Shown in pieces: positions 27,302-31,795 of a stretch of DNA of 33,294 nt. The DNA comes from a virus. Location: the IMG/VR virus record IMGVR_UViG_3300025769_000450, positions 1 to 33,294 of that record. One strand, given 5' to 3'. The translations under genes and the position numbers were made by a program. Positions within the stretch are counted from its first letter, which is position 1, and each line of letters opens with the position of its first letter. The notes under the pieces are model-generated. The model was not told where the DNA came from, searched no databases, and saw nothing but the letters and a program-made list of their open reading frames with translations.

Positions 27302-27330
27302 ATTATATCAATCTCCTAAAATCTTGTCAA
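27302..27330 (-). promoter_or_regulatory. Perfect sigma-70 promoter, main leftward
   Basis: Minus-strand TTGACA (27330-27325) and TATAAT (27307-27302), 17 bases apart. Both hexamers match consensus. It is the furthest upstream strong promoter of the leftward arm and could drive all structural genes. Predicted start near 27295. Confidence 0.9.
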
Positions 27331-28355: not shown

Positions 28356-28576
28356 ACTAAAGTTTCCAAACACCCCGCCGATAAGAGAGAGAGGCCAAAG
28401 TCAACCACCTATTTCCTAGAAATAAAGTGAACGACACTAAAAAAAGAACTAAAGTTTTTGATAAGGGCCGCCGATAAGAGAATTGAGTTAGGGGTGATTA
28501 CTTTCACCAAGTGAAAAGAAAGCCCAAAAAACTCAAAAAAGAGCTAAAGTTTTTAAAAGCTCTGACCGATAAAGAG
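28356..28576 (+). repeat. Three-unit array of ACTAAAGT ... CCGATAAGAGA elements
   Basis: Three units of about 93-95 bases each contain (A/G)CTAAAGTTT (starts 28356, 28448, 28543) and, 10-15 bases on, (G/A)CCGATAA(A)GAGA (28377, 28470, 28564). Hairpins lie between units (TATTTC/GAAATA at 28410-28424; GGTGA/TCACC at 28493-28508). Degenerate copies of the second box occur at 28097 (GCCGACA) and 28294 (GCCGATA). GATAAGAGAGA recalls the initiation region of single-subunit phage RNA polymerase promoters, so phage-specific promoters are one reading; origin iterons are another. Confidence 0.55.
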
Positions 28577-28584
28577 AGAGTAAG

Positions 28585-28987
28585 CAGCGCAGGGGATGCC
28601 CAAGCTGATACTAAATACACACTGGGAAACTGTAACAGTCATAAATAATTGCAGTAAGTGAATCACTCAATAGCGAAAGCGAGTGAACGGGTAGTCCAAC
28701 CTGATACCTTTAAAGTTAAAACGGACTTTTGATACCAAGCGCCAAATAGGTGCTACGAAAAGGCAATTAATTTTGCTGGGGTGCAGTAGTATGCAACCTT
28801 AGGTTATATGTAGGGAGTGGAATCCTGATAATAGCTAGCGGTATCATCAGATAGCTGGATACTACGAGATAATTGGGTAGGTTATTACTGAATAACTACA
28901 TTGAGTTAACCGATTATCACACAAGAGAGATAACGAAACGGGAAAAGTAAGCGCCGCGCGAGCGGATGGAACGCCGGAATTCCCGTC
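28585..28987 (+). ncRNA. Candidate large structured RNA ending at a ribozyme cleavage site
   Basis: About 400 bases without a believable gene form a series of hairpins: CACTC/GAGTG with an inner GC-GAAA-GC cap (28664-28685), AGTCC/GGACT (28693-28727), AGCGCC/GGTGCT (28738-28754), GGTGCA/TGCaACC (28780-28798), GTATC/GATAC with inner CAG/CTG (28841-28862), and GATAAT/ATTATC (28868-28918) enclosing GTTATT/AATAAC. The GNRA tetraloops and repeated CTGATA motifs are typical of large folded RNAs. Its 3' end would be set by the type II hammerhead at 28987. Phages are known to carry large ornate RNAs such as GOLLD and ROOL; I cannot match it to either. Confidence 0.5.
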
Positions 28988-29023
28988 GATAGGTGTTGGT
29001 AGCCTATCCTGATGAGTCACCAA
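28931..29023 (+). ncRNA. Type II hammerhead ribozyme (HHR1)
   Basis: All core elements are present in type II order. CGAAA (28934-28938) leads into stem III, CGGGAA (28939-28944) paired with TTCCCG (28980-28985), closed by a long loop with its own CCGC-GCGA-GCGG hairpin. Then come the cleavage triplet GTC (28985-28987), stem I GATAGG/CCTATC (28988-28993 / 29003-29008) with a nine-base loop TGTTGGTAG, and CTGATGA (29009-29015). Stem II is nearly absent (G29016-C28934, T29017-A28933). Loop I TTGGT can pair with ACCAA (29019-29023), a pseudoknot in its place. Predicted cut: 28987/28988. Confidence 0.82.
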
Positions 29024-29084
29024 AGTCTTTCAATCTTCATACGAGCCACACACAATGGCCCACCACATTAGAGGCGTTATGTCT

Positions 29085-29138
29085 CTCCTATCGGTAGATA
29101 TTGGTAGTCTACCCTGATGAGTTACCACGAAATAGGAG
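29085..29138 (+). ncRNA. Type III hammerhead ribozyme with SD in stem III (HHR2)
   Basis: Stem III pairs CTCCTA (29085-29090) with TAGGAG (29133-29138). The cleavage triplet is ATC (29090-29092). Stem I is GGTAGA/TCTACC (29093-29098 / 29108-29113) with loop TATTGGTAG, followed by CTGATGA (29114-29120), a one-pair stem II (G29121-C28 of 29128) with loop TTACCA, then CGAAA (29128-29132). Loop I TGGTA can pair with TACCA in loop II. The AGGAG in stem III is the SD of the gene starting at 29147 (eight-base spacing). Cutting at 29092/29093 would release the anti-SD strand and could switch translation on. Confidence 0.88.
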
Positions 29139-29146
29139 CGAATAAA

Positions 29147-29221
29147 ATGATTTACATGTTGATAGTACTTTACACAAGTTTGATAGTTTCAGTAATTACA
29201 GGCCTAGGAGGGCTTTACTAG
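29147..29221 (+). CDS. Membrane peptide, 24 residues, first gene under ribozyme control
   Basis: ATG 29147 lies eight bases after the AGGAG in hammerhead stem III. The product has a single membrane helix (MIYMLIVLYTSLIVSVITGL then GGLY). Its stop overlaps the GTG start of the next gene (TAGTG), so expression of this peptide may be coupled to the following genes. Whether the peptide works itself or serves as a translated leader is unknown. Confidence 0.65.
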   Translation: MIYMLIVLYTSLIVSVITGLGGLY

Positions 29222-29415
29222 TGAGAGATATAACACAATACAATGATCGCGAGCTTTATCTATGGTGTAATACTGAAGAGGATGACTATTTTATTGTTAA
29301 CGCACATATAAATTATAGACAGTATGGATTTTTAACTAATCACTTAGCGAGTAGATATAAATTTACACCTAAACAATTCACTTACTTGATAGATAACTGG
29401 GAGGTTTCTTTATGA
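29221..29415 (+). CDS. Small hypothetical protein, 64 residues, GTG start
   Basis: GTG overlaps the stop of the membrane peptide, with GGAGG upstream. The product has acidic and aromatic residues (NDRELYLWCNTEEDDYFIVN) and ends QFTYLIDNWEVSL, a compact helical domain. Stop overlaps the next ATG (ATGA). Not recognised. Confidence 0.68.
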   Translation: MRDITQYNDRELYLWCNTEEDDYFIVNAHINYRQYGFLTNHLASRYKFTPKQFTYLIDNWEVSL

Positions 29416-31117: not shown

Positions 31118-31795
31118 ATGAGCAAACTACTTACACAGAATAGCAAAATCAAAAAGAGCGGCGGCGACAAATTTGACATATGGAATTTTGGAATACCTGC
31201 ATATCAAAGTGAGACAGGTATTAAGACTTGCCCACTAGCAGGGGAGTGTGCTAAGGGATGCTACGCACAGCAAGGTGCTTATGTATGGGGTAATGTGAAG
31301 CCTGCCTTTGAACGTAGATTACAAGCTACACTACAAGATGACTTTGTACAAGTGATGAGTGCTGAGATAGCTGGCAAGGCTAAGAGGTCGGCGGCCAAAG
31401 GCAAGACTTTGGTAGTGAGAATACATGACAGTGGTGACTTCTACTCAGCAGGATACCTAGCTAAGTGGATTGAGGTAATGGAGCAAAATCAAGACGTTCT
31501 ATTCTATGCATACACTAAATCGATACCTTTCTTTAGAAGAATCACAACACCGACAAACTTTGTAGTCATATTCAGTGAAGGCGGCAAACTTGACCACCTA
31601 ATTAGGGACAACGACAGACACAGTAGAGTGTTTGAATCTAAGGCGGCGCTTGAAGCGGCGGGCTATGACGATGCTAGTAAGGATGACAAGGTAGCTTTCC
31701 TAAGTGGATCAGGTAAGATAGGATTGATCTATCACGGTGCTAAGTCTAAGTCGTGGACTACTGAAAATGAAACAAGAGAACTTGAGGTGGCGTAA
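31118..31795 (+). CDS. Gp88-like phage protein
   Basis: The 225-residue protein contains the pattern TCPLAGECAKGCYAQQGAY (Cys 38, 44, 48) and LVVRIHDSGDFYSAGYLAKW, followed by YAYTKSIPFF and VIFSEGG. This matches my memory of the Gene-product-88 family of phages, a Cys-rich protein of unknown function possibly binding metal or Fe-S. AAGGA precedes the ATG. The stop overlaps the next start (TAATG). It lies in the early-gene cluster; a role in host takeover or replication is only a guess. Confidence 0.7.
   Translation: MSKLLTQNSKIKKSGGDKFDIWNFGIPAYQSETGIKTCPLAGECAKGCYAQQGAYVWGNVKPAFERRLQATLQDDFVQVMSAEIAGKAKRSAAKGKTLVVRIHDSGDFYSAGYLAKWIEVMEQNQDVLFYAYTKSIPFFRRITTPTNFVVIFSEGGKLDHLIRDNDRHSRVFESKAALEAAGYDDASKDDKVAFLSGSGKIGLIYHGAKSKSWTTENETRELEVA

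Follow-up and report, generated by a model that had tools for sequence, protein, structure and literature searches.

The window analyzed here, a virus record of 33,294 bases in IMG/VR, has structural genes (terminase, portal, tail) running leftward and small genes, GP88 and DUF932 among them, running rightward. The two sets are separated by approximately 2 kb without long ORFs, and a hammerhead element is located at the right end of this gap (Table 1). A perfect sigma-70 promoter with an extended -10 (TTGACA-17-TATAAT) is present on the minus strand at 27302-27330 and faces the leftward structural genes. Direct repeats spaced by approximately 95 nt lie at 28360-28600; they include CCGCCGATAAGAGA and AACTAAAGTTTTT-like stretches and are possibly an origin or regulatory iterons.

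Table 1. Coordinates of the rightward leader features in the window
Feature	Position	Strand	Basis or remark
HHR1, permuted type II hammerhead	28925-29031	+	descriptor; MFE fold with matching stems I, III, and outer stem II; 0 type II matches in 300 shuffled windows; repeat shared with HHR2
HHR1 outer stem II, GAGAGAU/GUCUUUC	within 28925-29031	+	
HHR1 GAAA	28935-28938	+	5' of closed stem III
HHR1 stem III, CGGGAA/UUCCCG	28939-28944/28980-28985	+	
HHR1 predicted cleavage	28987/28988	+	
HHR1 stem I, closed	28988-28994/29002-29008	+	
HHR1 pseudoknot UUGGU/ACCAA, 5 bp, loop to 3' tail	28996-29000/29019-29023	+	by inspection
HHR1 CUGAUGA	29009-29015	+	
Predicted released RNA, 105 nt	28988-29092	+	inferred from the two cleavage sites
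HHR2, type III hammerhead ribozyme	29085-29138	+	Rfam RF00008, E=4.1e-5; own descriptor; covariation in 17 relatives
Stem III 5' strand CUCCUA (anti-SD)	29085-29090	+	pairs with 29133-29138
Predicted cleavage site AUC^G	29092-29093	+	position after NUH in core (Rfam alignment)
Stem I hairpin, predicted 5' end of cleaved mRNA	29093-29113	+	7 bp; all paired in 17 relatives, 6/7 pairs compensated
Stem I strands GGTAGAT/GTCTACC	29093-29099/29107-29113	+	
Loop I ATTGGTA, GGUA part	29103-29106	+	pseudoknot partner of loop II
Core CTGATGA	29114-29120	+	
Stem II GT/AC, 2 bp	29121-29122/29127-29128	+	
Loop II UACC	29123-29126	+	complementary to loop I GGUA; columns nearly invariant
Core GAAA	29129-29132	+	
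Stem III 3' strand UAGGAG (Shine-Dalgarno sequence, SD)	29133-29138	+	8 nt from ATG at 29147
24-aa hydrophobic ORF MIYMLIVLYTSLIVSVITGLGGLY	29147-29221	+	SD in stem III; stop overlaps GTG of next ORF
Next ORF, 64 aa, GTG start	29221-29415	+	own strong SD AGGAGGG

Two hammerheads in the leader

Two hammerheads located 105 nt apart were found in the window using our own descriptor, which covers hammerhead types I, II, and III. In 300 dinucleotide-shuffled windows, the descriptor returned 3 type III, 1 type I, and 0 type II matches, none of which scored as high as the real ones. The downstream element, HHR2, has an open stem III and closed stems I and II according to both the Rfam alignment and the descriptor, and its core is complete, with CUGAUGA, GAAA, AUC^G, and stems I, II, and III all present. 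Rfam cmscan matched RF00008 (Hammerhead_3) to exactly 29085-29138 with 35 bits, below the gathering score of 48.5, and nothing was returned for HHR2 at the gathering threshold; this cut-off is a detection threshold and not a defining feature of the ribozyme. The folding energy of HHR2 alone is unremarkable (MFE z=-1.36) because the pseudoknot is left out of the folding model. The loop I GGUA and loop II UACC are complementary and conserved, and a tertiary contact between them is predicted by sequence comparison. By every core sequence test available, HHR2 is a hammerhead. Matches to snoRNAs in the Rfam scan were attributed to chance, as was a match of the leader to Lactobacillus phage LpeD (E=0.3), which falls inside coding sequence.

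The initial annotation had placed a hammerhead at this position, with TAGGAG serving both as its stem III 3' strand and as the only SD of the gene at 29147, CTCCTA as the pairing partner, and cleavage at 29092/29093 yielding an mRNA that begins with the stem I hairpin. These anatomical claims agreed with the present analysis: the coordinates were exact to the base, the two strands pair, no other SD lies between the ribozyme core and the ATG, and the core alignment gives the same predicted cleavage position and 5' hairpin.

Conservation was assessed using an alignment of 17 type III hammerheads of the HHR2 sub-kind from different phages. Compensatory changes were observed in stems I and III, with a covariation of 0.551 compared to 0.139 in shuffled alignments (0/500 reached the observed value), and two-sided changes were present in 12 of the 18 stem pairs. 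Since the aligned rows come from different phages, the fold is maintained by selection. In one relative (L353), a GG-to-CG change in loop I is matched, by inspection, by an altered loop II. The window virus has just one close relative, contig IMGVR_UViG_3300025759_000468 (L002/L011), which is 98.9% identical and therefore offers no independent conservation test for the window copy. None of 50,697 named phages gave a match in a BLAST comparison with four hammerheads.

The upstream element, HHR1, is a new finding of this analysis. It has the features of a type II hammerhead, namely GAAA 5' of a closed stem III, a closed stem I, an open stem II, and a pseudoknot to the 3' tail; it gave no Rfam match in the leader scan, and its folding energy is unremarkable (z=-1.26). 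The central parts of HHR1 and HHR2 form a 42-nt repeat with 81% identity. Because a second hammerhead lies just 5' of HHR2, the pair would excise a 105-nt RNA if both cleave. Upstream, more than 400 nt (28580-28990) are free of ORFs, and the plus strand of this interval folds moderately well (z down to -2.9) with its 3' limit in HHR1; it might be an uncharacterized structured RNA with a 3' end made by HHR1. An unusually structured large RNA at 28500-28990 was considered and set aside, as the folding z of about -1 to -2.9 is not decisive and diverged relatives are lacking.

The gene at 29147, described in the initial annotation as the first rightward gene, is a mini-ORF of 24 codons; its stop codon, TAG, and the start GTG of the 64-aa ORF overlap in the sequence TAGTG (29219-29223). 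The SD overlap claimed for it stands, and its reach is narrower than that description implied: since the 64-aa ORF has its own SD, masking would act directly on the mini-ORF only. The further genes of the downstream operon also carry their own SDs. With the next gene overlapping the stop and having its own SD, the rest of the operon would be affected only via coupling. Hammerheads are likewise followed by small hydrophobic peptides in the GP88-type phages L020 and L014.

Recurrence of SD-containing open stems among phage hammerheads

Scans covering 2.9 million viral contigs (IMG/VR) identified approximately 30 distinct hammerheads of types III and I with the SD inside the open stem, belonging to at least 14 DNA-unrelated contig groups. 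Clustering at the DNA level gave 16 groups, or 14 once two doubtful cases were removed; in the table of 33 cases, L119 and L200 are doubtful, with very short ORFs and a weak start. Start codons are mostly 5-10 nt 3' of these ribozymes, the ORFs are mostly 60-240 codons long, and the SD forms AGGAG, AGAGG, GGGAG, and UGGAG each occur with a matched anti-SD strand.

The type III scan used the pattern of AGGAG directly after GAAAN with an ATG 4-10 nt further on and returned 34 contigs, roughly half of which are hammerheads by fold, the others being chance coding matches. This set includes a CCUG/CAGG(AG) clade 5' of several different, unrelated gene families and a pair of contigs (L327/L328) with a stem III of 10 bp. 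Copies with stem III strands CUUCUUUG/CAAAGAGG (L007) and CCCUA/UAGGG+AG (L020) were encountered without the SD being required; another match of this kind (L008) had the pattern without a stem I and was rejected as chance. The type I scan, for a stem I of CUCCN/NGGAG, returned 16 contigs with 25 matches, and about 14 of the contigs carry genuine ribozymes; the CTCC...GGAG matches in L330 and L336 look like chance by inspection. As a collection-wide control, performed for type I only, the strands were swapped: the mirror pattern GGAG...CTCC, of equal composition, returned 2 contigs and 0 genuine ribozymes, compared to 16 contigs with about 14 genuine. Both mirror matches (L344 and L345) lack a hammerhead fold and were judged to be chance by inspection.

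Three contigs (L338, L343, and L201) each have three to four type I ribozymes of this kind ahead of several genes. The layout is a stop TAA, CUCC...GGAG, N5-10, and AUG, with the ribozyme mostly right behind the upstream stop (TAA|CUCCC), and the predicted cleaved mRNAs would begin with the SD itself. In L338, an SD-masking type I hammerhead is directly 5' of the gene for a phrog_1617 protein, and the GP88 protein of the window also matches phrog_1617. GP88-type genes recur beside leader hammerheads in L014, L020, L338, and the window (31118-31795), in phages that are otherwise unrelated, sometimes with a small hydrophobic ORF in between.

The position of phage hammerheads at gene boundaries is more general. 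Of 124 type I copies, 92 are preceded by an open frame of 50 codons or more that terminates between -40 and +15 nt from the ribozyme, often inside stem I, and for 106 a start codon lies within 70 nt. Boundary signals of both kinds, the stop codon and the SD, are absorbed into open stems. The TAA of the upstream gene seems to end the stem I 5' strand in L100, L101, L111, L176, and others (e.g. GGTTAA...TTAACC). Four contigs (L105, L193, L144, and L101) have 4-6 type I hammerheads each, most of them just 5' of a separate gene, and ribozyme-by-gene processing of whole operons is predicted for them. In L105, L131, and L144, the stem I 3' strand freed by the predicted cleavage can re-pair a short way downstream (e.g. 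UGUGGAUUUUACCCAC), forming a new 5' hairpin.

In a sample drawn by core sequence only, the SD is in the open stem in 4 of 141 viral hammerheads (three in L201 and one in L106, which equals L020) and in 0 of 68 hammerheads from cellular genomes. SD masking is therefore best regarded as a lineage-specific elaboration of the gene-boundary habit, and it is not a general role of phage leader hammerheads, since most keep the SD outside the ribozyme. A translational switch of this kind at the head of a phage operon had been called unusual in the initial annotation; the arrangement is a minority state in this sample but is not unique to the window. The comparative data make the SD overlap look selected and not accidental.

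Predicted cleavage and access to the ribosome site

From the observed fold, covariation, SD overlap, and recurrence, we infer cleavage by HHR2, release of the anti-SD strand, and an effect on translation. In HHR2, the SD is in the open stem and the anti-SD is on the strand detached by the predicted cleavage. Because HHR2 folds only with CUCCUA paired to the SD, the SD is covered in any uncut RNA that has adopted the active fold; by this geometry, SD exposure and an uncut, correctly folded ribozyme are mutually exclusive. The preferred interpretation, to which a probability of about 0.55 is assigned, is that of an element that processes the leader by self-cleavage and uses its open stem also as an SD/anti-SD clamp, so that cleavage licenses translation. 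Under this interpretation, HHR1 and then HHR2 would fold and cut as the rightward transcript is made, the anti-SD strand would become part of a distinct 5' product, attached through just 6 bp, and would fall off, and the processed mRNA would start with a 5'-OH and the stem I hairpin, its SD free to serve the 24-aa ORF and, via coupling, the next gene. In other phages, the clamp would be repeated gene by gene in polycistronic messages.

In most cases, the anti-SD strand is held by 4-6 bp after cleavage. For the window, the predicted duplex has an energy of -7.2 kcal/mol for the bare strand and -11.1 kcal/mol with flanks, compared to -6.5 kcal/mol for the SD with a generic 16S anti-SD. Nearest-neighbor folding with the pseudoknot omitted gave a mean SD-opening cost of 3.8 kcal/mol before cleavage and 2.3 kcal/mol afterwards (33 cases, Wilcoxon p=3e-4). 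With the pseudoknot likewise ignored, the window value showed a small drop (3.4 to 2.2 kcal/mol) and that of L350, in the CAGGAG clade, was reversed (1.7 to 4.1 kcal/mol). Exposure by folding is strong in several type I copies of L338 (predicted 6.5 to 0.3 kcal/mol at L338:11403) and in L327, modest in the window, and unsupported in part of the CAGGAG clade; these accessibility values are weak evidence either way because the pseudoknot, which would hold the loop II ACC apart from the SD, is absent from the model. It is plausible that cleavage turns translation on. The term 'switch' used in the initial annotation is too strong, as nothing indicates regulated cleavage, and 'cleavage-licensed ribosome site' is a better fit.

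Cleavage-licensed translation is favored over pure packing economy, in which the ribozyme cuts long phage transcripts into per-gene mRNAs with clean, often hairpin-capped 5'-OH ends, and sharing of the SD has no effect on translation because cleavage outpaces ribosome loading. With fast, constitutive cleavage, the SD would indeed be masked too briefly to matter. This alternative keeps an appreciable probability, clearly below even odds. It accords with the boundary position of phage hammerheads (92/124 with an upstream frame end, 106/124 with a start codon near), with the absorption of stop codons and SDs alike into open stems, with the SD being outside the ribozyme in most copies, and with the proposal of Perreault et al. 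that hammerheads process transcripts into operon- or gene-length mRNAs (PMC3088659). Packing alone does not readily explain the CAGGAG/CCUG pairing conserved before unrelated genes, nor the 10-bp stem of L327, in which the SD is deeply buried.

A truly conditional switch, with translation on under one condition because a factor (host state, upstream-terminating ribosomes, a protein, or an alternative fold via AGAGG at approximately 29072-29076) controls HHR2 folding or cleavage, is considered improbable. The type I relatives do place the anti-SD immediately 3' of the upstream stop, where a terminating ribosome would cover it, and a weak AGAG/CUCU hairpin immediately 5' of HHR2 could, by inspection, compete for the stem III 5' strand in the window. 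This hairpin has only about 4 bp, the leader yielded neither an aptamer-like or conserved alternative structure nor any other Rfam match, and it is without diverged relatives. It is hardly credible that the SD overlaps a real ribozyme by chance or that the ribozyme has decayed. By our own estimate, a random 6-nt stem strand holds GGAG with a chance of approximately 1%, and the SD-in-stem arrangement is the minority state, but the fact that it recurs across at least 14 contig groups, together with the strand swap for type I (16 versus 2 contigs), argues against coincidence, as the intact core and pseudoknot do against decay. On a broader form of the cleavage-licensing proposal, several phage lineages would have independently evolved translation-licensing hammerheads in which only self-cleaved mRNA exposes its SD, setting gene-by-gene expression in polycistronic messages, with upstream ribosomes or the state of the cell possibly determining the timing; this is advanced tentatively, at not quite even odds.

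Relation to known hammerhead systems

A synthetic SD-sequestering hammerhead riboswitch was reportedly presented by Wieland and Hartig in 2008. To our knowledge of the open-access literature, the SD as a ribozyme strand was previously known only as a synthetic design, and an earlier report elsewhere is possible. What is new, as far as the predicted structures indicate, is its natural and recurrent use. The architecture would tie cleavage to ribosome access by geometry in many phages. If so, a gene-control design built by synthetic biologists is already used in nature, phage mRNAs can carry an SD at, or very close to, a 5'-OH end generated by a ribozyme, and, should cleavage indeed license translation, these elements would be the natural counterpart of synthetic SD-masking ribozyme switches.

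A synthetic design of this type is described in PMC5052635, and twister ribozymes (P1-SD/P3-SD constructs) control SD accessibility in E. coli (PMC5052635). The window element resembles both in having the SD and anti-SD in a ribozyme stem, and in those constructs cleavage controls SD accessibility; they are engineered and ligand-controlled, whereas the window element is natural and without a known ligand.

Natural prophage and phage hammerheads of types I, II, and III with a loop I-loop II pseudoknot are known (Perreault et al. 2011, PMC3088659; Rfam RF00008, RF00163), and their role was left open at the time of that description. A 2-bp stem II is common in hammerheads, the loop I-loop II pseudoknot is critical for fast cleavage, and a cloned triple hammerhead array cleaves in E. 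coli (PMC3088659). HHphage of haloviruses HF1/HF2, for which the 5' end of the transcript has been mapped to no more than 3 nt from the hammerhead site (PMC3088659), is similarly close to a start codon, being 13 nt upstream at the head of a polycistronic transcript. Unlike the window element, it has a variant core and belongs to an archaeal virus, and no SD role is reported for it in the accessible part of the paper. The window pair shares with the hammerheads of PMC3088659 the core, the short stem II, the pseudoknot, the tandem arrangement, and nearby phage genes; in contrast, the text of that paper describes processing without an SD in the open stem and contains neither 'Shine' nor 'ribosome'. 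A similar tandem in reverse order, type III then type II, is located before an ORF in L005.
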